From assembly GCA_017623595.1 (NCBI GenBank), contig JAGAOU010000121.1, positions 1-53,042 of the forward strand: DNA of 53,042 nt, in the 5' to 3' direction. A program made the translations under genes and the position numbers. The notes under the pieces were generated by a model that ran no database searches, had not been told where the DNA came from, and saw only the letters and a program-made list of their open reading frames with translations. This document shows positions 13,906 to 50,989 of the stretch, piece by piece (the stretch's first letter is position 1; each line of letters begins with the position of its first letter). Source of the stretch: Clostridia bacterium (GTDB taxonomy: Bacteria; Bacillota; Clostridia; Oscillospirales; UBA644).

Positions 13906-14442
13906 ATGATCATGTCGCAGCATGCCGTTACCGAGTCTGTTCGGCATTTTGTCGGTAAAGTTCTTTCGGTCCGTGTGGATCGGGTGGAGGTCGCTCCGGG
14001 GATTTTTGCACCCCGTGAGGTTGTGGAGCACGTGCCTTCCGTCTGCATTCTTCCCGTGGACGAAAGAGGAATTGTGTACCTTGTGCGCCAGTACCGTCAT
14101 CCCGTGGGTGCGGACCTTCTGGAGGCTCCCGCCGGCATGATGGATGAAGGGGAGACCCCCGAATATGCCGCCGCCCGTGAGCTGCGGGAGGAGATCGGCG
14201 CTGAAGGGGAATTGATTGCTTTGGGTGAATTTTTGCCCACCCCCGGCTATTGTGATGAGAAGATGTTTTTGTTCCTTGCCCGTGTTTCCCGTTTCGGGGA
14301 GACCGAGCCCGATGAGGACGAATTTTTAGAGATGGTATCCATGCCTTTTTCGGAGTTCTACCGTAAGGCGGTGGACGGAACCCTGCGGGACGGACGCGCC
14401 CTTGCTCTTGCGCTGCGTGCCGCCCCCTATATCAACGGTTGA
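13906..14442 (+). CDS. Nudix hydrolase, ADP-ribose pyrophosphatase type
   Basis: 178 residues with the full Nudix box GMMDEGETPEYAAARELREE followed by IGA, preceded by the family region YLVRQYRHPVGADLLEAPAG, which is characteristic of NudF/ADP-ribose diphosphatases. Such enzymes cleave ADP-ribose to AMP and ribose phosphate with Mg2+. PTPGYCDEKMFLFLA follows, as in that subfamily. Starts at 13906 or 13912 are both possible behind AAGGAAAGG; I prefer 13906. LexA begins 17 bases after the stop, so the two genes are co-transcribed from the promoter at 13850. Confidence 0.9.
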   Translation: MIMSQHAVTESVRHFVGKVLSVRVDRVEVAPGIFAPREVVEHVPSVCILPVDERGIVYLVRQYRHPVGADLLEAPAGMMDEGETPEYAAARELREEIGAEGELIALGEFLPTPGYCDEKMFLFLARVSRFGETEPDEDEFLEMVSMPFSEFYRKAVDGTLRDGRALALALRAAPYING

Positions 14443-14458
14443 AGAGGAGACTGATTTT

Positions 14459-15064
14459 ATGTCGAAACGTGATGAAAAGCGCGCTCAGATTTTGGAATTT
14501 GTGACCGCCAAGGTTACCGAAGAGGGGTATGTTCCCTCCGTGCGGGAAATCTGTAAGGCAGTGGGGCTTTCTTCCCCCGCCACCGTTCATTATCATCTGA
14601 ATCAGCTTTGCGAGGAAGGTTTGATCTCCAAAGAACCCGGCAAGAAGCGCTTTCTCCGTCTTTCGGGCCAGTCTTCCTCCGGTGCTTTTGTGAAAATTCC
14701 CGTGGTGGGCCGCGTGACCGCAGGTCAGCCCATTCTCGCTCAAGAATATATTGAGGATTATATTCAGGTTCCCGCCGACCGTATCCGCGGCAGAGACACC
14801 TTCGCTCTCACCGTGCGGGGGGACAGTATGATCAACGCCGGAATTTTGGATGGGGATGTAATCATTGTCCTGCGTACACCCGTGGCAGAGGATGGTGAAA
14901 TTGTTGTCGCTTTGTTGGGGGATGAGGCCACCGTCAAGCGCTTCTATCGGGAGGGCAGACGGTTCCGTCTTCAGCCCGAAAACGACGCATATGCCCCTAT
15001 CTATACCGAAGAGGTGAAAATTCTCGGCAAGGTGATTGCCCTTCATCGGTACGAAATTCTCTGA
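14459..15064 (+). CDS. lexA: LexA repressor (SOS response)
   Basis: 201 residues. The winged-helix DNA-binding domain covers 1-70 (VPSVREICKAVGLSSPATVH) and the S24 self-cleaving domain 75-201. The cleavage site is Ala88-Gly89 in GRVTAGQPILAQE, the nucleophile is Ser123 in VRGDSMINAGILDGD and the general base Lys160 in ATVKRFYRE. Under DNA damage RecA filaments trigger cleavage, relieving repression of repair genes. The start follows GAAGAGGAG. I did not find a convincing LexA box at its own promoter, which lies ahead of the nudix gene. Confidence 0.97.
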   Translation: MSKRDEKRAQILEFVTAKVTEEGYVPSVREICKAVGLSSPATVHYHLNQLCEEGLISKEPGKKRFLRLSGQSSSGAFVKIPVVGRVTAGQPILAQEYIEDYIQVPADRIRGRDTFALTVRGDSMINAGILDGDVIIVLRTPVAEDGEIVVALLGDEATVKRFYREGRRFRLQPENDAYAPIYTEEVKILGKVIALHRYEIL

Positions 15065-15072
15065 GTTCTTTC

Positions 15073-15108
15073 CGCCCCGAAGATTTTTATGCTCCGGGGC
15101 GTTTTTTT
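15073..15108 (+). terminator. Terminator after lexA
   Basis: CGCCCCG (15073-15079) pairs with CGGGGCG (15095-15101), followed by seven Ts. Confidence 0.88.
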
Positions 15109-15184
15109 ATGTAAAATTTTGCCTTGAGCGGAATATATTATAATAATATATACGTTAATTCGTAATTATTTTACAAAAAGCCTC

Positions 15185-15213
15185 TTTACTTTGCGTTGGT
15201 TTTATGGTATAAT
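15185..15213 (+). promoter_or_regulatory. Promoter of the hydrogenase operon
   Basis: TTTACT (15185-15190) and TATAAT (15208-15213) with a 17-base spacer and extended -10 TG. An AT-rich near-palindrome (about 15132-15152) lies upstream. I looked for a Rex operator (TTGTTAA...TTAACAA) and found none. Confidence 0.75.
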
Positions 15214-15283
15214 AAGGTGCGATGGACTGTCCGACAGAACATCCATCATCAGCAAAAACTTTATCAAGAGAGGAAGTAACACT

Positions 15284-15781
15284 ATGGGTAAGTCCAAAAT
15301 TTCGAAGATTCCCTTCCAGGGAACACCCGAACAGGAACGCGAGTTGCGTGACATTCTCGCTTCCCTGAAAGATCAGCCCGGTGCCCTGATGCCCGCTATG
15401 CAGAAGGCTCAGGATATCTACGGCTATCTCCCCATCGAAGTTCAGACCATCATCGCCGAAGGCCTGAACGTCCCTGTAGAAGAAGTGTACGGCGTTGCCA
15501 CCTTCTACGCACAGTTCGCTCTGAATCCCAAGGGTAAGTACACCATCGGCGTATGCCTCGGTACCGCTTGCTACGTTAAGGGTTCTCAGGAGATCTTTGA
15601 CAAGTGCAGCGAAATCCTGAAGATCAAGGGCGGCGAAATCACCGAAGACGGTCTGTTCTCCCTGGAGGCAACCCGTTGCATCGGCTGCTGCGGTCTTGCT
15701 CCCGTTATGACGGTCAACGATGACGTTTACGGTAAGATCACCGCAAAAGACGTTCCCGACATTCTGAAGAAATACAACTGA
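15284..15781 (+). CDS. hydC: HydC/NuoE-like [2Fe-2S] subunit of bifurcating hydrogenase
   Basis: 165 residues of the NuoE 24-kDa thioredoxin-fold family. The helical N-terminal part contains ALMPAMQKAQDIYGYLP; the ferredoxin part has ligands Cys91 and Cys96 (CLGTAC) and Cys132 and Cys136 (RCIGCCG). In trimeric [FeFe] hydrogenases this subunit joins HydB and HydA to oxidise NADH and reduced ferredoxin together while making H2, or the reverse. The start follows AGAGGAAG. It is the first gene of a ten-gene operon; hydB and hydA lie at the far end, with six probable regulatory genes between. Confidence 0.93.
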   Translation: MGKSKISKIPFQGTPEQERELRDILASLKDQPGALMPAMQKAQDIYGYLPIEVQTIIAEGLNVPVEEVYGVATFYAQFALNPKGKYTIGVCLGTACYVKGSQEIFDKCSEILKIKGGEITEDGLFSLEATRCIGCCGLAPVMTVNDDVYGKITAKDVPDILKKYN

Positions 15782-15829
15782 TGCCCGGATTCCCCGAGGA
15801 ATCTCCAAATCAGTTGGGAGGAATTATTG

Positions 15830-16186
15830 ATGAAAATCAGCACCATCGTCGATCTCCTTGATGCGCAGGTCCTTTGCGGGGGAGATCATTTGGAAAACGA
15901 GGTCCATTCCGCTTGCGGTTCGGACATGATGAGCGATGTTCTTGCCTTTGTGAAGGATCAGGCGGTCCTTCTGACGGGGCTGATCAATCTTCAGGTGGTT
16001 CGCACTGCGGAAATGATGGACATGCGCTGCATTGTCTTTGTTCGCGGCAAAAAACCCGCAGAAGAAGTGATTGCCGCCGCCGATGATGCGGGTATCGTTG
16101 TCCTTGCCACTACCGAGCGTATGTATCCCGCCTGCGGGAAACTGTATGCCACCGGCCTTGTGGGCGGGAGCGTGTCTGCCGTATGA
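15830..16186 (+). CDS. DRTGG-domain protein, first copy in the hydrogenase operon
   Basis: 118 residues, a stand-alone DRTGG domain, the alpha/beta module also seen in HprK-related and phosphotransacetylase-related proteins; its ligand is unknown. Visible features are an N-terminal helix (MKISTIVDLLDAQVLCGG), DMMSDVLAFVKD, and IVFVRGKKPAEEVIAAA. The ATG at 15830 follows GGGAGGAATTATT. The stop overlaps the next gene as ATGA, so it is coupled to the ATPase. A second DRTGG protein is encoded at 17955. Position within hydrogenase operons of Clostridia suggests a sensory or regulatory role (inference). Confidence 0.82.
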   Translation: MKISTIVDLLDAQVLCGGDHLENEVHSACGSDMMSDVLAFVKDQAVLLTGLINLQVVRTAEMMDMRCIVFVRGKKPAEEVIAAADDAGIVVLATTERMYPACGKLYATGLVGGSVSAV

Positions 16187-16620
16187 GTGAGCCTGTGAAA
16201 TTCCATTTCGATGTGGAGGGGGACAATTTCTCGTCGGCGGGGGAAGCCTCCGTCAACGTGAAAAAGCTTCTCCGTCAGCTGAGTATGGACCCCGAAACCA
16301 TCCGTCGTGTCTCCATCGCCATGTACGAAGGAGAAATCAACATGGTCATCCATGCCAACGGCGGAACCGCAGATGTGCTTCTTTATCCCGATCGGATTCG
16401 CATCATTCTTGCCGATACCGGTCCGGGTATTGCGGATGTTGCCCTTGCCATGCAGGAAGGGTTCTCCACTGCGAAGGACAATGTGCGGGCGTTGGGCTTC
16501 GGCGCAGGAATGGGGCTTCCGAATATGAAGCGTTATACCGACCGTATGGAGATTGAATCCGAGGTCGGAAAGGGTACCACCGTTACCATGGATGTCTTCC
16601 TCCCCGGGAAGAATGCCTGA
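16183..16620 (+). CDS. GHKL ATPase, anti-sigma-factor/RsbW-like
   Basis: 145 residues with the Bergerat ATP-binding fold. The N box reads EGEINMVIHANGG, the G1 box DTGPGI and the G2 region GFGAGMGLPNMKRY. There is no histidine-phosphorylation domain, so it resembles RsbW-type serine kinases or anti-sigma factors rather than a sensor kinase. It overlaps the upstream DRTGG gene by 4 bases, and the HydS-like gene follows after 36 bases. A likely job is to relay the signal of the HydS-like protein. A second GHKL ATPase is encoded at 19009. Confidence 0.85.
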   Translation: MSEPVKFHFDVEGDNFSSAGEASVNVKKLLRQLSMDPETIRRVSIAMYEGEINMVIHANGGTADVLLYPDRIRIILADTGPGIADVALAMQEGFSTAKDNVRALGFGAGMGLPNMKRYTDRMEIESEVGKGTTVTMDVFLPGKNA

Positions 16621-39776: not shown

Positions 39777-40047
39777 ATAAAAGCTGTGACGAGGACGGTT
39801 TGGAGTCCCTTGCTTTGAGAGAGCCGACGGTTGGTGCGAGTCGGAAGCAAGCCTCCTTGTAACCCATCACCTCCGAGCCGGAAGTCCGAACGCCGTCGGT
39901 CAGTAGGCGCTTCCCGTGATTGCTGCGTTAACGCATAGGGATTGTTGGATCCCAAGAGTGGCGGAAGGAATACTTTCCGCAATTTGAGTGGTACCGCGAG
40001 TGTATATTCACCCGTCTCAAAGACTTTCTTTGGGACGGGTTTGTTTT
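39777..40047 (+). ncRNA. T-box riboswitch, predicted tRNA-Ile (specifier ATC)
   Basis: Stem I: CTTGCTT (39809-39815) pairs with AAGCAAG (39845-39851); a distal hairpin CCGAC/GTCGG encloses GGTTGGTGCGA, the tRNA-elbow-binding loop, with an AGAGAG bulge on the 5' side. The specifier is read as ATC (39866-39868), followed by ACCTCCGAGCC. Stem III is GCGGAA/TTCCGC (39961-39980). The T-box sequence TGGTACCGCG is at 39989-39998. The terminator stem is 40011-40023 with 40027-40039, then a T run to 40047. Uncharged tRNA-Ile would stabilise the antiterminator and permit expression of the synthetase at 40128. Assignment to Ile rests on alignment with the second leader and on context. Confidence 0.93.
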
Positions 40048-40127
40048 TTTACCGGTGAGCCGCAGATCCGATCCCTCCCAACAAAAAGAACGCGCTCACC
40101 TAAATTTTCCGTCAGGAGGTAAAAAAC

Positions 40128-42395
40128 GTGGCAACAACAGTAGAAACCGAAAAACTTCTTCAGGTCGCGGCTCGGATTTGGGAGATGCGGGAAATTTCCG
40201 GTCTTTCCGTGGAAGAAATGGCGAAGCGGACCGAAGTTTCCACCGAAGAATATCTTCGGTACGAAAAGGGAGAGGCAGACTTTCCGTTTTCTTTTATTCA
40301 CAAATGTTCTCTGGTTTTCAATATCGGAATTTCCGACCTGTTGGAGGGGAAATCCGCCAACCTTTCGTCCTATACCGTCACCCGAAAGGGGCAGGGACAG
40401 GAAACGGCAAAGGAGGATGGAATCACCATTCAGAACCTTGCGCCCATGTTCCGAAAGAAAATTGCCGAGCCCTATTGGGTGCGCTACGAGTACGACCCCT
40501 CCCAGCAAAATAAGCCCATCCACCTTGCCACCCACTCCGGACAGGAATTCGATCTGGTGGTCAGCGGAAAGCTGAAGGTTCAGATCGGAAATCATACGGA
40601 GATCTTGGGCGAGGGGGACAGCATCTATTACAATTCTTCCACCCCTCACGGAATGATCGCCGTGGACGGAGAGGATTGCGTCTTCTGCGCCGTGGTTCTT
40701 CCGGGGGAAGATACCAAGGAAGAAACGGTGCGCGCCAGCATCGTTACCGCAAAATCCTCCGAGCCTCTGGTCTGTGAAAAATTCGTGGAGACCGTCGAGG
40801 ACGAAAACGGTGCGTTGCAGAATATTTCCTTCAAAAATACCGATACCTTCAACTTCGGCTTTGACGTGGTGGACGAGATCGCCGCGCGTTATCCCGACAA
40901 ATTGGCGATGCTTCACCTGGACGTCAATCGGACGGAGCGTCGGTTTACCTTCAAGGATATCAAGCAGTATTCCAACCAATGCGCCAACTACTTTACCTCC
41001 CTCGGCATCAAGCGGGGCGATAAGGTTATGCTGGTCTTGAAGCGGCATTACCAATTCTGGTTTGCCATGGTGGCTCTGCACAAAATGGGCGCCGTTGCCA
41101 TCCCTGCCACCAATCAGCTGAAGGAACACGATTTTGAATACCGCTACAACGCCGCAGGCGTTTCTACCATCGTTTGTACCGCCGACGGAGACGTTGCCGA
41201 CATTGCCGCCGCCGCTGCGGAAAAATGCCCCCAGGTAACCAACAAAATTTTAGTGGGCGGCAAAAAGGACGGATGGCACGATTTTGATGAAGAATTCAAG
41301 CTGTTCTCCCGGAAATACCTCCGTCCCGAAGACGCTTCCGCCGGAGACGAAACGGCGTTGATGTTCTTTACCTCCGGCACCACCGGAAACCCCAAAATGG
41401 CGGCGCATAAGCACACCTACGCCCTGGGGCATTACGTCACCGCAAAATATTGGCATTGTTGCGAACGGGACGGCTTGCATTTAACCATTTCCGATACCGG
41501 CTGGGGCAAGAGCCTTTGGGGCAAGCTGTACGGTCAATGGCTCTGCGAAGGGGCGGTATTCGTTTACGATTTCGACCGCTTTGACGAAAAAGATATTCTG
41601 CCCATGTTCGCAAAATACAACATCACCACCTTCTGTGCACCTCCCACCATGCTGCGGATGCTGATTCGGGAGGATCTGTCGAAATACGATCTGTCCTCCA
41701 TCCATCACATGACCACCGCAGGGGAAGCGTTGAACCCCGAAGTGTTCAAGAAATTTAAGGAAGCCACCGGGCTGGAGATCATGGAAGGCTTCGGACAGAC
41801 CGAAACTACCCTTGCCATCGCCAATTTGGTGGGCACTGCCCCGAAGATCGGCTCGATGGGGAAGGCGTCGCCCCAATTCGATCTGGACGTCGTGGACGCC
41901 GACGGCAACAGCGTTGCCAACGGGGAGGTCGGAGAAATCGTCATTCATACCGACCGATCGGTTCCCTGCGGTCTGTTCCGGGAATATTATCTCGACGATG
42001 AAAAAACCCGCGAGGCGTGGCACGACGGGATGTACCATACCGGTGACACGGCGTGGAGAGACGAGGACGGCTATTTCTGGTACGTGGGACGCGTGGACGA
42101 CGTGATCAAATCCTCCGGCTATCGGATCGGACCCTTCGAGATCGAAAGCGTCATCATGGAATTGCCTTACGTTTTGGAATGCGGCGTATCTGCCGCCCCC
42201 GACGAGGTTCGGGGACAGGTGGTTAAGGCTTCCATCGTTCTGACCAAGGGAACGCAGCCCACGGAAGAGCTGAAGAAAGAAATTCAAACCTACGTCAAGA
42301 ACCATACCGCACCCTATAAATATCCCAGAATCGTCGTTTTCTGCGATTCGCTGCCCAAAACCATCAGCGGCAAGATTCAAAGAAACAAACTGTAA
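40128..42395 (+). CDS. XRE-cupin-acyl-CoA synthetase fusion (AMP-forming), Ile T-box controlled
   Basis: 755 residues. An XRE helix-turn-helix (about 15-70: SGLSVEEMAKRTEVSTEEYL) is followed by a cupin (115-195: His136 and Glu140 in THSGQEFDLVV, His174 in TPHGMIAV) and a complete AMP-forming synthetase (245-755): [46 protein letters not shown] and the catalytic lysine K749 in [12 protein letters not shown]. The sequence is nearest to medium- or short-chain acyl-CoA synthetases (ACSM type). With an Ile leader, 2-methylbutyrate is a likely substrate (inference). GTG start behind AGGAGG. The HTH could let the enzyme bind its own DNA; untested. Confidence 0.88.
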   Translation: MATTVETEKLLQVAARIWEMREISGLSVEEMAKRTEVSTEEYLRYEKGEADFPFSFIHKCSLVFNIGISDLLEGKSANLSSYTVTRKGQGQETAKEDGITIQNLAPMFRKKIAEPYWVRYEYDPSQQNKPIHLATHSGQEFDLVVSGKLKVQIGNHTEILGEGDSIYYNSSTPHGMIAVDGEDCVFCAVVLPGEDTKEETVRASIVTAKSSEPLVCEKFVETVEDENGALQNISFKNTDTFNFGFDVVDEIAARYPDKLAMLHLDVNRTERRFTFKDIKQYSNQCANYFTSLGIKRGDKVMLVLKRHYQFWFAMVALHKMGAVAIPATNQLKEHDFEYRYNAAGVSTIVCTADGDVADIAAAAAEKCPQVTNKILVGGKKDGWHDFDEEFKLFSRKYLRPEDASAGDETALMFFTSGTTGNPKMAAHKHTYALGHYVTAKYWHCCERDGLHLTISDTGWGKSLWGKLYGQWLCEGAVFVYDFDRFDEKDILPMFAKYNITTFCAPPTMLRMLIREDLSKYDLSSIHHMTTAGEALNPEVFKKFKEATGLEIMEGFGQTETTLAIANLVGTAPKIGSMGKASPQFDLDVVDADGNSVANGEVGEIVIHTDRSVPCGLFREYYLDDEKTREAWHDGMYHTGDTAWRDEDGYFWYVGRVDDVIKSSGYRIGPFEIESVIMELPYVLECGVSAAPDEVRGQVVKASIVLTKGTQPTEELKKEIQTYVKNHTAPYKYPRIVVFCDSLPKTISGKIQRNKL

Positions 42396-42472
42396 AAACG
42401 TAAAATGATTGAATCAACGTTCCTTCGGGGCGGAAAAAAGTCGGGTTTTTTGCAAAAAATTGCGAAAAAGGT

Positions 42473-42501
42473 ATTGACAAAACACCAAAGTTGTGATAAA
42501 A
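42473..42501 (+). promoter_or_regulatory. Promoter of the second T-box operon
   Basis: TTGACA (42473-42478), TAAAAT (42496-42501), spacer 17, extended TG; transcript start near 42508. Confidence 0.85.
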
Positions 42502-42507
42502 TAGTAC

Positions 42508-42807
42508 TATTCTTTTTAATAAGTACAAAGGCTTTGACGAAGAGGATACGGAAAAGGGTTTCCGCAGAGAGACGTGGCGGTTGGTGCGAGCCATCGGAAA
42601 CGTTCCGTATTTGTCACTTCCGAGCCGAGGGAAAGAACACCTTTCAAGGTCGGTAGAATCCCTCCGTGATTGCTGCGTAAAGGCATAGGGGTTGTTAGAC
42701 CTCAAGAGAGGCGGTTTTTCCGCAATTTGAGTGGTACCGCGGGTGTATTGTATTCCAAGCACTCGTCTCAAAGTTTTATCAGCTTTGGGGCGGGTGTGTT
42801 TTTATTT
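42508..42807 (+). ncRNA. T-box riboswitch, predicted tRNA-Val (specifier GTC)
   Basis: Same plan as the first leader. Helices GTTTCCG/CGGAAAC and ATACGGAA/TTCCGTAT flank an AGAGAG bulge; the distal loop is GGTTGGTGCGA. The specifier aligns at 42613-42615 as GTC, followed by ACTTCCGAGCC (the first leader has ATC then ACCTCCGAGCC). Stem III is GCGG/CCGC (42711-42723), the T-box TGGTACCGCG is at 42732-42741, and the terminator stem is 42760-42773 with 42783-42796, then T-rich sequence. It should turn on the downstream nine-gene operon when valine is short. The intergenic space 42396-42831 is filled by this element and its promoter. Confidence 0.93.
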
Positions 42808-42831
42808 CCGTCCCGGATAGGAGAAACTTGT

Positions 42832-44829
42832 ATGGAGCAAATGACCGGATTGGATCGTAAGATCCGGGAAATGGCAAGCCGTATTCGCGAATTGCGTCAG
42901 CTGGAGGGCTTGTCCACCGCCGAGATGGCGGCGCAGACCGGTGTAACCGAAGAAGAATATCTTCAATGCGAAGAAGGAAAAAGCGATCTGAACTTTGCCT
43001 TCATTTATCGGTGCGCTATGATCTTAAAGGTCAACGTCACCGAAATTATCGAGGGGCAGAGCCCGAAGCTGAAATCCTATACCGTCACCCGTCGGGGACA
43101 GGGGCAGGAGGTTTCCAAGGCTCACGGCATGACCTACTATAACCTTGCCTACGCCTTCCGTGACCGTATTGCCGAGCCCTTGTACGTCCGCAGTATTTAC
43201 GATCCCTCCGCCCAGCAGAAGGACATCGAGCTGACCACCCACGCCGGGCAGGAATGTGATCTGATCATCGAAGGAAATCTGATGGTTCAGGTGGGCGAGC
43301 ATAAAGAGGTTTTAGGTCCGGGGGACAGCATTTATTTCGACTCCGATACCCCCCACGGCATGATCGCCGTCAACGGTAAGGACTGTATCTTCTACGCCAT
43401 CGTTCTGAATCCTACGGGCGAGCCGATCCCCGAATTGACCGAGGTAAAATCGGTCTCGGAAAAGCGGGTTCAGGTCGCCGATACCAAGGATCGGATCTAT
43501 CGGAAATTTATCGACGTTACGGAAAATCAAAACGGAACGCCCACCGAAATCAAATTCAAAAATACGGAAAAGTTCAATTTCGCCTTTGATCTCGTAGATG
43601 CCTTGGCGGATCGGGAACCGGAAAAAATGGCGATGCTTCACATCTCCAGGGACAAGACCGTTCGCCGGTTTACCTTCAAGGATATCAAAAAAGCGTCCAA
43701 TCAATGCGCCAACTATTTCAAATCCCTCGGCATCAAAAAGGGCGACCGAGTCATGCTGGTGCTGAAGCGTCACTACCAATTCTGGTTTGCCATGATGGGC
43801 TTGAACAAGCTGGGCGCCATCGCCATCCCCGCCACCAATCAGCTGCAGGAGCACGATTTTGAATATCGCTTCCAATCGGCAGGGGTTTCCGCCATTCTTT
43901 GCACCGCCGACGGAGATACTGCCCGCCAGGTGGAGATCGCCGCGGAAAAATGCCCGGATTTGAAGCACAAGATCCTGGTCAACGGAAGTCGGGAGGGCTG
44001 GAGGAGCTTCGACGAAGAATATTCCTTGTACAGCACCCACTTCAAGCGCACCGAAGATTCTCCCTGCGGAGACGATCTGATGCTGATGTTCTTTACCTCC
44101 GGAACTTCCGGATATCCCAAGCTGGCGGCGCACAATTACAAATATCCCCTGGGGCATTTCCATACCGCCAAGTATTGGCATAACGTAGATCCCGACGGCT
44201 TGCACTTTACCATTTCCGACACCGGTTGGGCAAAATCCATGTGGGGCAAGCTTTACGGACAATGGCTCTGTGAAGGGGCGGTATTCGTTTACGACTTCGA
44301 CCGCTTCGACGCGGCAGACATTCTGCCCATGTTTGCGGAGCATCACATTACCACCTTCTGCGCTCCCCCCACCATGCTGCGCATGATGGTTAAGCAGGAT
44401 ATTTCCAAGTACGATTTTTCCTCGGTCAAGCACATGACCACCGCCGGCGAGGCGTTGAATCCCGAGGTTTACCGTCAGTTTGAAAAAGCCACCGGGCTGC
44501 AGATCATCGAGGGCTTCGGTCAGACCGAAAGCACCATGATGATCGGCAATATGGTCGGGGCGGATCATAAGATCGGCTCTATGGGCAAAAAGGTTCCGGT
44601 TTACGACGTGGAGCTTCACGACGCCGACGGCAACCAGGTCCCCGTCGGAGAAACGGGAGAGATCGTAGTCAACATCAAAACGGACTTCCCTGCGGACTTG
44701 CCGTGGGATATTACGGCGATGAAGAAAAAACCGCGGAAAATTGGCACGACGGATATTACCATACCGGCGACGTCGCCTGGAAGGACGAGGACGGCTTCTT
44801 CTGGTACGTGGGCAGAGCCGACGACGTAA
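42832..44829 (+). pseudogene. XRE-cupin-acyl-CoA synthetase fusion, Val T-box controlled; 5' part before frameshift
   Basis: A paralogue of the protein at 40128, with the same order: XRE (12-65, LEGLSTAEMAAQTGVTEEEY), cupin (TTHAGQECDLIIEG, TPHGMIAV) and the AMP-forming synthetase (FFTSGTSGYPKLA, GFGQTEST). Reading frame is lost near 44686-44690 (GACTTCCC, where GACTTTCCC would keep frame with [13 protein letters not shown]). After this point the frame gives unrelated residues to 44829 while the true C-terminus continues at 44703-45119. With one T restored the protein would have 762 residues. Likely substrate isobutyrate (inference). Start ATG at 42832 behind GGAGAAACTTG. Either a sequence error or an early lesion. 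Confidence 0.85.
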
Positions 44830-45119
44830 TCAAGTCTTCGGGCTACCGGATCGGACCCTTCGAGATCGAAAGCGTCATCATGGAATTGCCCTACGTTCTG
44901 GAATGCGGCGTTTCCGCCGAGCCCGACGAGGTTCGGGGACAGGTGGTCAAGGCATCCATCGTTTTGGTGGACGGCACCGAACCTACCGAGGATTTGAAAA
45001 AAGAAATTCAAACCTACGTCAAACAAAAAACCGCACCTTACAAATATCCCCGTATCGTGGTCTTCCGTGACTCGTTACCCAAATCGGTCAGCGGAAAGAT
45101 CCAGCGGAACAAACTGTAA
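44703..45119 (+). pseudogene. XRE-cupin-acyl-CoA synthetase fusion, 3' part after frameshift
   Basis: 138 residues starting at a GTG within [22 protein letters not shown]. They contain the synthetase C-terminal domain with [37 protein letters not shown] and the catalytic lysine in [12 protein letters not shown], so all essential motifs survive on one side or the other of the frameshift. The last 60 residues are almost identical to the paralogue at 40128. The stop overlaps the ATG of the next gene (TAATG). Confidence 0.85.
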
Positions 45120-45787
45120 TGCTTATGAGAGATTTCAAACGAATCACCCTGCTTTGCGGACATTACGGAAGCGGAAAAACCAACGTGGCGGTCAATCTTG
45201 CCGTTGCCCTGCGGGAACGGTACGATCGGCTTGCGGTGGCGGATCTTGACATCGTCAATCCCTACTTTCGCTCCAAGGACAGCCGGGGGCAGTTCGAGGA
45301 TTTAGGCATCCGCCTGATCTGTTCCGAATACGCCAACACCAACGTGGATATTCCGGCGCTTCCCCAGGATATGTACGCCGTTACCGACGACCGTGACCTA
45401 CGGGTTATCATCGACGTCGGGGGCGACGATCGGGGGGCTTTGGCGCTGGGACGGATCTCCCAGCGGATTTTGGAAGAGAACGATTACGAAATGCTTGCCG
45501 TGGTCAATTCCTCCCGCCCCTTGACCCACACCCCCGAGGATACGGTGGAGGTGCTGCGGGAGATTGAAGACGCCGGCGGAATCCAATTTACCGGTATCGT
45601 AAACAACACCAACCTGGGCAGAGAGACCGACGCCAATGTGGTGTTACGCTCGGTTTCTTATGCCGAAGCGGTTTCAAATTTGATGGAAATTCCGGTGGTT
45701 ATGACGACCGTGCCCGCGGAATTATTCCCTCAACTGCAAGGAAAAATAGAAAATCTGTTCCCCTTGGAACTTCAGAAAAAACTGTGA
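45119..45787 (+). CDS. MinD/ParA-like P-loop ATPase in the 2-oxoacid oxidoreductase operon
   Basis: 222 residues. Deviant Walker A GHYGSGKTNVAVN with Lys20, then VADLDIVNPYFRS, a switch region IIDVGGDDRGALALG and the NTKxD-like segment VVNSSRPLTHTPED. This is the SIMIBI class that includes MinD, ParA and metal-cluster assembly factors. The function is unknown; maturation of Fe-S clusters or cofactors for the oxidoreductase is conceivable. Its ATG overlaps the preceding stop (TAATG), so translation is coupled to the synthetase; an alternative start is the ATG at 45125. The ferredoxin subunit gene follows after 45 bases. Confidence 0.85.
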   Translation: MLMRDFKRITLLCGHYGSGKTNVAVNLAVALRERYDRLAVADLDIVNPYFRSKDSRGQFEDLGIRLICSEYANTNVDIPALPQDMYAVTDDRDLRVIIDVGGDDRGALALGRISQRILEENDYEMLAVVNSSRPLTHTPEDTVEVLREIEDAGGIQFTGIVNNTNLGRETDANVVLRSVSYAEAVSNLMEIPVVMTTVPAELFPQLQGKIENLFPLELQKKL

Positions 45788-46048: not shown

Positions 46049-47122
46049 GTGTCTGATAAAGTTTTGATGAAGGGCAACGAGGCGATTGCGGAAGCCGCGA
46101 TCATCGCCGGATGCCGTCACTATTTCGGGTATCCCATTACCCCCCAGACGGAGGTTGCCGCGTACATGGCGAAGCGGATGCCGAAGATCGGCGGATGCTT
46201 CCTGCAGGCGGAAAGTGAAATTGCCGCCATCAACATGGTTTACGGCGTTGCTTCCACCGGAAAGCGCGTGATGACCTCCTCCTCCAGCCCGGGAATTTCC
46301 CTGAAGGGCGAGGGGCTTTCTTACCTTGCCGGCGCAGACCTTCCCGCGTTGGTGGTCAACGTCCAGCGGGGCGGTCCCGGCTTGGGCGGAATTCAGCCCA
46401 GCCAATCGGACTATTTCCAAGCCACCCGTGCCGGCGGACACGGCGATTTCAAAATGATCGTCCTTGCCCCCGCTTCGGTACAGGAAATGGCGGAATTGAC
46501 CGTCAAGGGCTTTGAGCTTGCAGACAAATACCGCATGACCACCATGCTTCTTGCCGACGGTACGATGGGGCAGATGATGGAGCCCGTCGCGCTGAACGAT
46601 CTGAAGGTCAACGATTCCATCGAAAAGCCCTGGGCGACCACCGGCACGAACATGGAACGGGAACACAACATTGTCAATTCCCTCTTCCTCGATCCCGCCG
46701 CCCTGGAGCAGACCAATTTTGAACGGTTCGACCGCTACAAGACCATCGAAGAAAACGAGGTCATGTACGAAGAGTATCTGATGGACGATGCGGATATCGC
46801 CATCGCTGCCTTCGGGATCGCCGCACGGGTTTCCAAAAACGCCATCGACGAAGCCCGCAAGGAAGGCATCAAGGTCGGTATGATCCGTCCCATCACCCTG
46901 TGGCCCTTCCCCGTAGCACCCTTCCGGAAGGCTGCAGATCAGGTCAAGGCGATGATTTCCGTGGAATTGTCCATGGGTCAGATGATCGAAGACGTCCGCC
47001 TTGCCACCGAATGTAAAATTCCCGTAACCCTGTGCAACCGGGTGGGCGGTATGATCCCCTCTCCCGAACAGGTTTTGGAATCCATCCGTACTACCGCTGC
47101 CAAGATCGGAGGTGCCAACTAA
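46049..47122 (+). CDS. vorB: 2-oxoacid:ferredoxin oxidoreductase alpha subunit (VorB/KorA-like)
   Basis: 357 residues. KVLMKGNEAIAEAAIIAGC and FGYPITPQTEVAAYMA at the start, then QAESEIAAINMVYGVASTG and SSPGISLKGEGLSYLAGAD, all standard for domain I of the family; domain II ends with SVELSMGQMIEDVR and NRVGGMIPSPEQVL. It catalyses reversible CoA-dependent decarboxylation of 2-oxoacids with ferredoxin. Starts are GTG at 46040 or 46049; AGGTGA sits before the second with the better spacing. Stop overlaps the beta gene ATG (TAATG). Confidence 0.93.
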   Translation: MSDKVLMKGNEAIAEAAIIAGCRHYFGYPITPQTEVAAYMAKRMPKIGGCFLQAESEIAAINMVYGVASTGKRVMTSSSSPGISLKGEGLSYLAGADLPALVVNVQRGGPGLGGIQPSQSDYFQATRAGGHGDFKMIVLAPASVQEMAELTVKGFELADKYRMTTMLLADGTMGQMMEPVALNDLKVNDSIEKPWATTGTNMEREHNIVNSLFLDPAALEQTNFERFDRYKTIEENEVMYEEYLMDDADIAIAAFGIAARVSKNAIDEARKEGIKVGMIRPITLWPFPVAPFRKAADQVKAMISVELSMGQMIEDVRLATECKIPVTLCNRVGGMIPSPEQVLESIRTTAAKIGGAN

Positions 47123-47880
47123 TGGTCGTATTTGATAAACCCCATGCTCTGACCGACGCTCCCATGCACTACTGCCCCGGCTGTACCCACGGGATCGTTC
47201 ACCGTCTCGTCGCCGAGGTTATCGACGAATTGGGCATTGAAGGAAAAACCATCGGCGTTGCCCCCGTCGGCTGCTCCGTTATGGCGTATAATTATTTTGC
47301 TTGCGATATGATCGAAGCCGCCCACGGACGCGCTCCCGCCGTTGCCACCGGCGTAAAGCGTGCAGATCCGGAAAATCACGTGGTCTTCACCTATCAGGGT
47401 GACGGCGACTTGGCTTCCATCGGGATGGCGGAAACGGTTCACGCCGCCGCCCGGAACGAAAATATCACCGTGATCTTCATCAACAACGCCATTTACGGAA
47501 TGACCGGCGGTCAGATGGCGCCCACCTCCCTCCCCGGGCAGGTCACTCAAACCTCCCCCTACGGAAGAGATACGAATCATTGCGGATTCCCCATCAAGGT
47601 TTGCGAATTGCTCTCCGAGCTGGACGGACCCGAATATCTGACCCGCGTCACCGTCAACAGCGTCAAGAACATCAAAGCCGCAAAGGCCGCCATCAAAAAG
47701 GCGTTCCAGAATCAGATCGACGGCAAAGGCTTCTCTTTGGTCGAGGTTCTTTCTTCCTGCCCCACCAACTGGGGAATGACGCCCCAAAAGGCGCTGGAAT
47801 GGATCGACGAAAAGATGATTCCCTACTACCCCTTGGGTGTGTATAAAGACAGATCTGCCGCAAAGGAGGAGACGAAATGA
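47122..47880 (+). CDS. vorA: 2-oxoacid:ferredoxin oxidoreductase beta subunit (TPP-binding)
   Basis: 252 residues. MHYCPGCTHGIVHRL at 17-31, GVAPVGCSVMAYNYF, and the TPP/Mg motif QGDGDLASIGMAETVHAA followed by INNAIYGMTGGQMAPTS. This subunit holds thiamine diphosphate. The CPGC and GCS cysteines agree with the [4Fe-4S] binding seen in some family members. It overlaps the alpha subunit gene by one base and the gamma gene by four. Relation to 2-oxoisovalerate versus 2-oxoglutarate cannot be decided from sequence; the operon points to branched-chain substrates. Confidence 0.93.
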   Translation: MVVFDKPHALTDAPMHYCPGCTHGIVHRLVAEVIDELGIEGKTIGVAPVGCSVMAYNYFACDMIEAAHGRAPAVATGVKRADPENHVVFTYQGDGDLASIGMAETVHAAARNENITVIFINNAIYGMTGGQMAPTSLPGQVTQTSPYGRDTNHCGFPIKVCELLSELDGPEYLTRVTVNSVKNIKAAKAAIKKAFQNQIDGKGFSLVEVLSSCPTNWGMTPQKALEWIDEKMIPYYPLGVYKDRSAAKEETK

Positions 47881-48410
47881 GCACGAAACAATTTTTGTTC
47901 TCCGGATTCGGCGGTCAAGGTATTTTGTTCGCCGGAAAGTTCATCGCTTATAAAGGCTTGATGGACGGTAAAAACGTCAGCTGGCTTCCTTCCTACGGTC
48001 CCGAAATGCGGGGCGGCACTGCCTCCTGCGGCGTAATCGTCGGGGATGAAACCGTCGGATCTCCCATCGTTTCCCGTCCCGACGTGTTGGTTGCCATGAA
48101 TCTTCCTTCCCTGGATAAATACGAATCAACCGTTGCCCCCGGCGGAATTATTTTCGTGGATTCCACCCTGGTTTCCCGAAAAGTCAACCGCACCGACGTT
48201 ACGGTGTACCCCATCCCTGCCACCCAAATGGCAAGCGACAACAAAACCCCCACCCTTGCCAACATGATTCTCGTGGGCAAGATTCTGAAGGTTCTCAACG
48301 ACTTCGATGAAGTAAGCGTCCGCACCGCCCTCGGAAAGGTTATTTCCGCCAAGCGGGCAGATATGCTGGAGGTCAATCTCAACGCCATGAAGCTGGGCGC
48401 AGATTATTGA
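47877..48410 (+). CDS. vorC: 2-oxoacid:ferredoxin oxidoreductase gamma subunit
   Basis: 177 residues. Family start FLFSGFGGQGILFAGKFIA and the signature SWLPSYGPEMRGGTASCGVI, which contacts CoA, then NLPSLDKYESTVAPGGIIFVDST. Completes the four-subunit enzyme (delta, alpha, beta, gamma). ATGA overlap with the beta gene; ilvE follows 14 bases after the stop. Confidence 0.92.
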   Translation: MSTKQFLFSGFGGQGILFAGKFIAYKGLMDGKNVSWLPSYGPEMRGGTASCGVIVGDETVGSPIVSRPDVLVAMNLPSLDKYESTVAPGGIIFVDSTLVSRKVNRTDVTVYPIPATQMASDNKTPTLANMILVGKILKVLNDFDEVSVRTALGKVISAKRADMLEVNLNAMKLGADY

Positions 48411-48424
48411 AAGGAAACTCGGTT

Positions 48425-49492
48425 ATGTTGAATATTACCGTTACGAAAACCACGACTCCCAAGGAAAAGCCCGAGGCTTCCACCCTTGGCTTTGGGAAGT
48501 TTTTCACCGATCATATGTTTATGATGGACTATTCCCGGGAGGAAGGCTGGCACGACGCCCGCATCGTTCCCTTTGCCAACATTTCCCTTCATCCCGCATC
48601 TACGGTGCTGCATTACGGCTCTGAAATTTTTGAAGGGCTGAAGGCGTACCGCCGCGCCGACGGAAAGGTTCAGCTGTTCCGTCCCATGGAAAATATCCGC
48701 CGTTTGAACAATTCTGCGGAACGTCTCTGCCTGCCCCAAATCCCCGAAGAAGACGCCTTTCAGGTATTGAAAGCCTTCGTGGAAATGGAACAGGATTGGA
48801 CCCCTTCCGCCCCCGGAACGTCGTTGTATCTCCGCCCGTTTTTGTTCGGAAACGACGAGACCTTGGGCGTTCACGCCGTTCATAACGCCACCTTCGTGAT
48901 CATCGCTTCTCCCGTGGGAAGCTATTACAAGGAAGGCATCAACCCGGTTCGCATCATGATCGAGGACGAAGACGTCCGCGCGGTTCGGGGTGGTACGGGC
49001 TATGCAAAATGCGGCGGAAACTACGCCGCCAGCAACCGCGCCGGAGAACGGGCAGAGAAGAAGGGCTATTCCCAGGTTCTCTGGCTGGACGGTGTGGAAC
49101 GCAAATATATCGAGGAAGTCGGCGCGATGAACGTCATGTTCAAAATTGCCGGCGAAATCGTCACGCCCATGCTTTCCGGCTCGATCCTACCCGGCATTAC
49201 CCGGAAATCCTGCCTGGAGGTTCTACGCAAGGAGGGGTATCAGGTCAGCGAGCGACTATTGAGCATCGACGAGCTGGCAGAAGCCCTATCCAACGGAACC
49301 TTGGAAGAAGCCTGGGGCTGCGGTACTGCCGCGGTGGTTTCTCCCATCGGCGAATTGTGCTACAAAGATACTAAATATATTATCAACGGCGGTAACATCG
49401 GCGCCGTCACCCAACACCTTTACGACACCCTGACCGGAATCCAATGGGGCAAGATCGAAGATTCCTTCGGTTGGACCTGCCCGATTGATTGA
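48425..49492 (+). CDS. ilvE: Branched-chain amino acid aminotransferase
   Basis: 355 residues, the long form of class IV aminotransferases. LGFGKFFTDHMFMMDY at the start, GSEIFEGLKAYR, the PLP lysine in GTGYAKCGGNYAAS, YIEEVGAMNVMFKI and SGSILPGITRKSCLEV. It transfers amino groups between glutamate and the oxoacids of valine, isoleucine and leucine. Its place next to the oxoacid:ferredoxin oxidoreductase supports amination of oxoacids made by carboxylation. ATG at 48425 is used, behind AAAGGAAACTCGG. Confidence 0.95.
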   Translation: MLNITVTKTTTPKEKPEASTLGFGKFFTDHMFMMDYSREEGWHDARIVPFANISLHPASTVLHYGSEIFEGLKAYRRADGKVQLFRPMENIRRLNNSAERLCLPQIPEEDAFQVLKAFVEMEQDWTPSAPGTSLYLRPFLFGNDETLGVHAVHNATFVIIASPVGSYYKEGINPVRIMIEDEDVRAVRGGTGYAKCGGNYAASNRAGERAEKKGYSQVLWLDGVERKYIEEVGAMNVMFKIAGEIVTPMLSGSILPGITRKSCLEVLRKEGYQVSERLLSIDELAEALSNGTLEEAWGCGTAAVVSPIGELCYKDTKYIINGGNIGAVTQHLYDTLTGIQWGKIEDSFGWTCPID

Positions 49493-49609: not shown

Positions 49610-50989
49610 ATGAAACAGATCATCATTTCCGACACCACCCTCTGCAAAGCAGGGAGCACCTATACCTTTAAAGAGAAGATCGAAATTGCGCGCCAGCTGG
49701 AGCGCTTGAAGGTTGACGTGATCGAGCTTCCCGAGATCCAAAACGGAAAAACCGATATTCTACTTGTTCGTACTCTGTCCTCTTTCGTGAAAAATTCCAT
49801 TCTTTCCGTTGCCGTGGGCGTTACGCCCGACAGTCTGGAAAACGCCTTGCAGGCATTGTCCGGCGCGTCCCGTCCCCGAATTCGGGTGGAGGTTCCCCTT
49901 TCTCCCGTAGGCATGGAGTATCAAAGCCACAAAAAGCCCCCCAAGATGCTGGAATTTATTTCTGCCGCCGTTTCTTCCGCAAAGCAGGGCTGCGCCGACG
50001 TGGAATTCTGCGCCGTGGACGCTACCCGTGCGGAACCGGAATTCTTAAAAACTGCCGTGGAAACCGCCCTTTCTGCCGGTGCTACCTCCATCTCCCTGTG
50101 TGACAGTGCCGCGGAAATGCTGCCCGACGATTTTGCCGCCTTTGCCGCAGGGATCAAGGAACAATGCTCCGTTCCCGTAACCGTTTGCTGCGACGATAAA
50201 AACGGACTTGCCTGCGCTTCTGCCATTTTGGCGGTTCGCGCCGGTGTTGACGGTGTAAAAACCTCCGTGGACGGCACCTGCGTTTCCCTGGAAACCTTTG
50301 CGGATATGATTAAAAATTGCGGAAACACCTACGGCTTTTCTTCCTCCGTGCGGGTGACGGAATTGCACCGCGGGATCGGTCAGATCCGTTGGATCGCAGG
50401 GAATTCCAAGAGCGAAAAGCCTTCCCTTGCCGTTCCTTCTGCCAACGACGAATCCATTCGTCTCGACAAAAGCGACGACCAGACCGCCGTTACCGTTGCG
50501 GTCAAGAAATTGGGATACGAGCTGTCCGAGGAAGACAACGCACGGGTTTATGAGGAATTTTTGAGAGTTGCAGACCGCAAGACCGTCGGCGCAAAGGAAT
50601 TGGACGCCGTCGTTGCCAGCGTTGCCCTGCAGGTTCCCCCCTCGTATAAGCTGAAAAGCTACGTCATCAACAACGGCAACATCATTTCCGCTAGCGCCCA
50701 GATCACCTTGGAGCGAGACGGCAAAGAATTGCCCGGTATTTGCATGGGCGATGGACCGATGGACGCGGCGTTCAAAGCCGTGGAACAAATTATCGGTCAC
50801 CACTACGAGCTGGACGATTTCCAGATTCAGTCGGTCACCGAAGGAAAGGAAGCGGTGGGCTCTGCCCTGGTCAAGCTTCGTTCCAACGGCAAATTGTACT
50901 CCGGTAACGGCATTTCCACCGACATCGTAGGCGCCGGCATCCGGGCGTATATCAACGCGGTCAACAAGATCGTTTACGAGGAGGCGTAA
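49610..50989 (+). CDS. LeuA-like protein with degenerate catalytic domain and intact regulatory domain
   Basis: 459 residues. The N-terminal HMGL-like barrel (1-270) resembles isopropylmalate/citramalate synthase but has lost key residues. DTTLRDGEQ reads DTTLCKAGS (8-16), lacking the catalytic Arg, and the metal-binding HxH before the NDLGLA motif is Cys193-x-Asp195 (CCDDKNGLA). The C-terminal LeuA allosteric domain (about 345-455) is well kept: LKSYVINNGNIISASAQ, MGDGPMDAAFKAVEQ, GKLYSGNGISTDIVGAG. It is therefore probably not a normal synthase. It could be a regulator that senses leucine or another amino acid, or an enzyme of altered chemistry. ATG behind AGGAG. Confidence 0.85.
   Translation: MKQIIISDTTLCKAGSTYTFKEKIEIARQLERLKVDVIELPEIQNGKTDILLVRTLSSFVKNSILSVAVGVTPDSLENALQALSGASRPRIRVEVPLSPVGMEYQSHKKPPKMLEFISAAVSSAKQGCADVEFCAVDATRAEPEFLKTAVETALSAGATSISLCDSAAEMLPDDFAAFAAGIKEQCSVPVTVCCDDKNGLACASAILAVRAGVDGVKTSVDGTCVSLETFADMIKNCGNTYGFSSSVRVTELHRGIGQIRWIAGNSKSEKPSLAVPSANDESIRLDKSDDQTAVTVAVKKLGYELSEEDNARVYEEFLRVADRKTVGAKELDAVVASVALQVPPSYKLKSYVINNGNIISASAQITLERDGKELPGICMGDGPMDAAFKAVEQIIGHHYELDDFQIQSVTEGKEAVGSALVKLRSNGKLYSGNGISTDIVGAGIRAYINAVNKIVYEEA

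Follow-up and report, generated by a model that had tools for sequence, protein, structure and literature searches.

Domain architecture and gene context

What can a LeuA-derived protein do when it lacks the catalytic residues of LeuA and keeps its regulatory domain? The question was raised by one gene in the window, by which we mean the whole stretch of 53,042 nucleotides analysed here. The initial annotation placed this gene in a branched-chain operon, and VOR and BCAT genes do lie 5' of it; the constant neighbour among relatives, however, is the ligase fusion gene downstream. The region comprises the following features.

39777-40022, + strand: T-box leader, specifier AUC (isoleucine), 96.3 bits
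40128-42395, + strand: second HTH-cupin-AMP-forming acyl-CoA ligase, predicted for the isoleucine branch by its T-box; 60% identical to the ligase at 42835
42525-42773, + strand: T-box leader with valine specifier GUC; 76.5 bits, short of the gathering score (93), but E 6e-17
42835-45119, + strand: HTH-cupin-AMP-forming acyl-CoA ligase, best match MbcS, predicted for the valine branch by its T-box
45119-45787, + strand: P-loop ATPase, kept between ligase and VorB
46058-47122, + strand: 3-methyl-2-oxobutanoate dehydrogenase subunit VorB (PRK07119, 541 bits)
47119-47880, + strand: 2-oxoacid:acceptor oxidoreductase TPP/beta subunit (VOR), profile match
47877-48410, + strand: 2-oxoacid:acceptor oxidoreductase gamma subunit (VOR), profile match
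48428-49492, + strand: branched-chain amino acid aminotransferase IlvE (PRK13357, 482 bits)
49610-50989, + strand: LeuA-derived pseudo-synthase, 459 aa
50993-53042, + strand: TIM barrel of xylose-isomerase type (residues 1-280) fused to an AMP-forming acyl-CoA ligase (residue 290 on), cut by the contig end

The pseudo-synthase consists of a (beta/alpha)8 barrel (residues 1-241), a shortened linker and a LeuA regulatory domain (328-458). In profile searches, residues 7-236 matched the HMGL-like Pfam family with 108.7 bits, and the C-terminal regulatory domain of LeuA was recovered by LeuA_dimer (PF08502) at residues 328-454 with 99.6 bits against a cut-off of 24.9. The protein nevertheless scored below the cut-offs of the LeuA equivalogs of NCBIfam (273.6 vs 532 bits and 239.8 vs 598.7 bits), of NifV (82 vs 462.9) and of CimA (45 vs 450), and the DRE-TIM metal-binding and catalytic residues that would mark a CimA, NifV or homocitrate synthase are absent. 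The closest solved sequence was the IPMS of N. meningitidis (E 1.7e-23). In the AlphaFold model (pLDDT 85.8, pTM 0.59) the barrel is complete and is followed by linker helices and the regulatory domain; residues 266-281, at the place of the LeuA catalytic linker segment, are disordered. Its top Foldseek matches were methylthioalkylmalate synthase, M. tuberculosis LeuA and other IPMS structures.

When plasmid records were searched for the LeuA-like protein, only ordinary LeuA was present among the matches listed. On contig C7 of genome G133, a candidate proved to be a fragment of a genuine LeuA with leuCDB behind it and was rejected.

Loss of catalytic and metal-binding residues

The 459-aa protein is a member of a single old clade descended from LeuA, of which we aligned 118 full-length orthologues, 42-85% identical, with 11 LeuA sequences. 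The initial annotation had reported CKAGS at residues 12-16 in place of RDGEQ and Cys193-x-Asp195 in place of HxH. Both readings hold in the translation (C193-C-D195 for the latter), and the alignment with LeuA revealed losses larger than those described. The RDGEQ motif, with its Arg and metal-binding Asp, is absent in 118/118; the window protein combines CKAGS with a 4-residue deletion, and the family has that deletion or unrelated letters. The GERAGN loop, which carries the metal-binding Asn as third metal ligand, is deleted in all 118. The catalytic Glu of SCED is Val136 here and mostly V, L or I in the family, and about 43 linker residues are gone, including HQ(D/H)G with the catalytic His and YE with the Tyr. 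All of these elements, HxH included, are missing from every family member, and because the losses are common to 118/118 they amount to more than chance.

The initial annotation had left room for alternative residues forming the metal site. Instead of HxH, the 118 sequences have variable residues, with K in 40, Q in 17, S in 15 and R in 12 at position 193, and S in 55, D in 36 and N in 11 at position 195. A substitute site at C193/D195 was thus ruled out, neither position being conserved, and since the former metal-binding positions are free to vary, no conserved substitute exists among the orthologues. Arg89, Asp90, Gln93, Glu227, His288, His290, His388 and Tyr399 of BjMAMS were shown to be essential and are conserved in IPMS (PMC11532901); the counterparts of these metal-binding and catalytic residues are missing from the LeuA-derived family in our alignment. 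Our literature search found no report of a LeuA pseudoenzyme, and a search on the name of the regulatory domain was likewise without result.

Selective constraint and the regulatory domain

Among 38 diverse family members, mean pairwise identity was 43% in the barrel and 67% in the regulatory domain, whereas ten LeuA of the same order gave 66% and 50%, respectively. The domain constraint is therefore reversed relative to LeuA, and the C-terminal domain, described as well conserved in the initial annotation, is the most conserved part of the family. Comparisons with close relatives yielded dN/dS of 0.07-0.15, with the lowest values in the regulatory domain (0.017-0.085; one comparison was saturated). 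In the tree, the clade has a single origin inside LeuA, on a long stem with support of 100/100. The protein is thus, like HisZ, an enzyme paralogue that has lost its catalytic residues under purifying selection.

Aligned with M. tuberculosis LeuA, the GNGPL loop became GDGP(I/M) in the family, V551, Y554 and A565 correspond to L401, F404 and A415, and the second pocket strand has kept small and hydrophobic residues. In the LeuA structure, this loop and strand line the leucine pocket. The pocket Tyr of LeuA is Phe404 in 118/118, and the Glu of the LeuA 'DIVEAS' motif is Gly441 in the window protein; because both differ from LeuA, an acyl compound or an amino acid other than leucine could be bound instead. 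In LeuA itself, leucine sits at the dimer interface of the regulatory domain (PMC11057210).

The partner gene

The TIM-barrel/acyl-CoA ligase fusion was the next gene in every pseudo-LeuA locus with enough 3' sequence. Over 115 loci the gap between the two genes had a median of 2 nt and was at most 30 nt in 109, a 4-nt overlap being common; this genetic coupling to the putative regulated enzyme is again of the HisZ kind. Within groups, the ligase halves are 80-84% identical, and the ligase motifs are intact in full-length homologues. Gene order thus makes the fusion, not the oxidoreductase, the likelier obligate partner.

The fusion occurred in 82/197 genomes of the order, 42 with the LeuA-like protein and 40 without, and in the latter it stands alone (20 loci examined). 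By analogy with the xylose-isomerase-like fold family, E140, D168, H195 and E237 would form the metal site of its barrel. These residues were kept in 19/19 stand-alone fusions vs 9/90 partnered ones, among which several different decay patterns were seen; the window fusion has a degraded set (E140, N168, S170, Q195, V237). The ligase tree separates partnered from stand-alone fusions by one fully supported branch. Taken together, the partner-linked split and the decay of the metal set indicate that the fused barrel decayed as the LeuA-like partner was gained, and the contrast of 19/19 with 9/90 indicates that partner and barrel are functionally linked.

The stand-alone fusions (L160-L179), with their intact metal set, may have a barrel activity or ligand of their own that was lost in the partnered forms. 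A PF04909 amidohydrolase gene followed the fusion in 55 of about 97 loci (range L034-L113).

T-box leaders

In relatives, Rfam detected T-box leaders directly 5' of the pseudo-LeuA gene. Most relatives have a leader belonging to the pair, and where present it is a T-box. Specifiers read from the printed Rfam alignments were leucine codons in 14/14 (13 CUC, 1 CUG). A stem-checked script, applied to the fetched loci, returned leucine in 95/97 (90 CUC, 5 CUG); in L084 and L096, which gave CAT, the anchor was probably misplaced. By the same script, the stand-alone fusions had the leucine specifier CUC in 8/8, and the HTH-cupin ligases, sister ligases that lie beside the VOR genes, had isoleucine AUC in 9 and valine codons in 26. 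As judged from these specifiers, one type of ligase belongs to leucine, and the others belong to valine and isoleucine.

The leucine T-box directly 5' of the gene is found in the family, not at the window copy, which has no T-box of its own and sits behind the valine-led operon. This arrangement is common to its closest relatives, L034, L035 and L158, the last being the second copy in the same MAG. The tandem HTH-cupin ligases behind isoleucine and valine T-boxes (window 39777-42835) show the same split in relatives, which suggests 2-methylbutyrate and isobutyrate as their candidate substrates. The reading frame of the valine-branch ligase (42835-45119) is broken near 44.7-44.8 kb; since the L158 copy (14041-16335) is intact, the break is an assembly error or a strain-specific lesion.

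Distribution of branched-chain pathway genes

We surveyed 197 genomes of the order, each counted once regardless of relatedness. On this count, LeuA was found in 0/42 genomes with the LeuA-like protein vs 61/155 without, LeuB over the cut-off in 2/42 vs 111/155, IlvC in 4/42 vs 87/155 and VOR (VorB) in 38/42 vs 91/155. With relatedness likewise ignored, VOR was present in 76/82 genomes with the fusion vs 53/115 without. A wider sample of 348 genomes of the phylum added one further genome with the LeuA-like protein, in the same gene pair. The system occurs in gut Clostridia.

The MAG of the window (86% complete, 3.5% contamination) is an exception, as short contigs carry leuC, leuB, ilvB, ilvC and ilvD. 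It also holds two cassette copies of 79% identity, which suggests a mixed bin and may reflect two strains; given these copies and the ilv/leu fragments, a canonical LeuA may exist there. The diverged cassettes and two leuB-bearing short contigs are on contigs C14, C34, C55 and C107 of this MAG (G000).

Proposed role and alternatives

The leucine ligase also occurs alone under a leucine T-box, so the LeuA-like protein is not needed for the chemistry. As it is not a necessary catalyst, its simplest role is allosteric, that of a leucine-binding subunit for the ligase. We consider it reasonably probable that the LeuA-derived pseudoenzyme senses leucine as a regulatory subunit of the TIM-barrel/acyl-CoA ligase encoded next to it, in the leucine branch of reductive carboxylation. 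The initial annotation had suggested a non-enzymatic sensor, and this part of its proposal agrees with the clade-wide catalytic loss, the strongest constraint in the regulatory domain and the leucine T-box control.

In the proposed mechanism, the ligase would activate a leucine precursor acid, most likely isovalerate. VOR would then carboxylate the activated acid reductively, and IlvE would transaminate the product. The leucine T-box would allow transcription of the pair when leucine is scarce; when it accumulates, leucine would bind the LeuA-type domain and, through a putative contact of the LeuA-like protein with the ligase, change ligase activity, with binding, contact and direction of control all inferred. 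The full account, to which we give an even chance, is that a dead LeuA was converted into an end-product sensor for a non-homologous route to the same amino acid; it would sense leucine for an isovalerate-CoA ligase, and the metal site of the barrel fused to that ligase would have been lost in parallel. Leu, Val and Ile would each have one ligase, as assigned by the T-boxes.

Rather unlikely is a purely structural or chaperone role, in which the protein would stabilise the ligase fusion without sensing leucine and would keep its regulatory domain for dimerisation alone. Pfam names PF08502 a dimerisation domain, the genes are tightly paired, and the partner barrel is degraded in parallel. The regulatory domain, however, is conserved beyond the needs of the fold, as its 67% identity across the 38 diverse members includes the GDGP loop and the pocket strand.

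A little less likely still, in our judgement, is a new activity of the barrel in the leucine branch that needs no metal, be it catalysis or acyl-CoA binding. H107, K109, E132, D137, R140, D165 and K217 are family-specific barrel residues that are invariant or nearly so in the 118 sequences, K217 standing where LeuA has an invariant Glu, and the modelled barrel fold is complete. The invariant H107, K109 and K217 also speak against the sensor reading in so far as they could point to some other function. Yet the barrel is the less constrained half and the old metal-site positions vary freely, while stand-alone fusions occur under the same leucine T-box without the protein, so that the route seems to need no additional reaction.

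That the protein senses for, or partners, the 2-oxoacid oxidoreductase, as the initial annotation also suggested, now appears improbable. The window and a minority of relatives do have VOR and BCAT genes on the 5' side, and VOR shares 38 of the 42 genomes. However, clearly fewer than half of the pseudo-LeuA loci had VOR genes within 8 kb, the cluster often being elsewhere in the genome, and the ligase fusion was always next; moreover, VOR would serve three branches, whereas the T-boxes of the pseudo-LeuA gene are for leucine only. The likelier partner is the ligase, which would feed the oxidoreductase. The idea of a decaying, functionless leuA pseudogene, prompted by the lost catalytic motifs, is refuted by the low dN/dS, the full-length frames in more than 100 relatives and the single origin with long conservation, and we give it practically no weight.

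Comparison with known systems

The protein shares fold, domain order, ancestry and regulatory domain with LeuA, a DRE-TIM metallolyase (PF00682 + PF08502), and differs in lacking the catalytic and metal residues and the catalytic linker segment, in the shift of constraint to the regulatory domain, and in being paired with a ligase instead of leuBCD. HisZ is a paralogue of histidyl-tRNA synthetase. In HisGS it is likewise a non-catalytic enzyme paralogue carrying an end-product signal to the first enzyme of a pathway (PMC9734150, PMC10795190), although fold and pathway are different, and the regulatory effect was shown for HisZ and is proposed here. The prozyme of trypanosome AdoMetDC (PMC5201418) is also a catalytically dead paralogue controlling an enzyme, but its partner is the live paralogue itself, whereas the LeuA-like protein would have as partner an unrelated ligase that carries a second, degraded barrel.

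The pathway most likely to house these genes is rumen leucine synthesis from isovalerate by reductive carboxylation, biochemical work (Allison et al. 1962, 1966) cited in PMC7356843. According to this paper and its references, rumen bacteria use branched volatile fatty acids to build branched-chain amino acids, rumen ruminococci have been known since the 1960s to grow on these acids as precursors of amino acids, and isovalerate carboxylation to leucine is established rumen physiology. Among the papers searched, none assigned the acid-activating genes or named their feedback control or regulator. Each ligase is tied to one amino acid by its T-box specifier, and for the missing leucine feedback the LeuA-derived protein is a concrete candidate. 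If true, this would be a clear case of an enzyme that kept its allosteric domain and gave up catalysis to serve a different pathway. Such genes may be annotated automatically as leuA, and a leucine pathway that the genome lacks may then be predicted.

At loci L136, L140 and L141, a phenylacetate-CoA ligase and an ACT-domain protein are encoded near the LeuA-like/ligase pair. There too, an amino-acid-binding domain protein adjoins an acid:CoA ligase; with an ACT fold and an aryl-acid ligase, the likeness is one of arrangement only.
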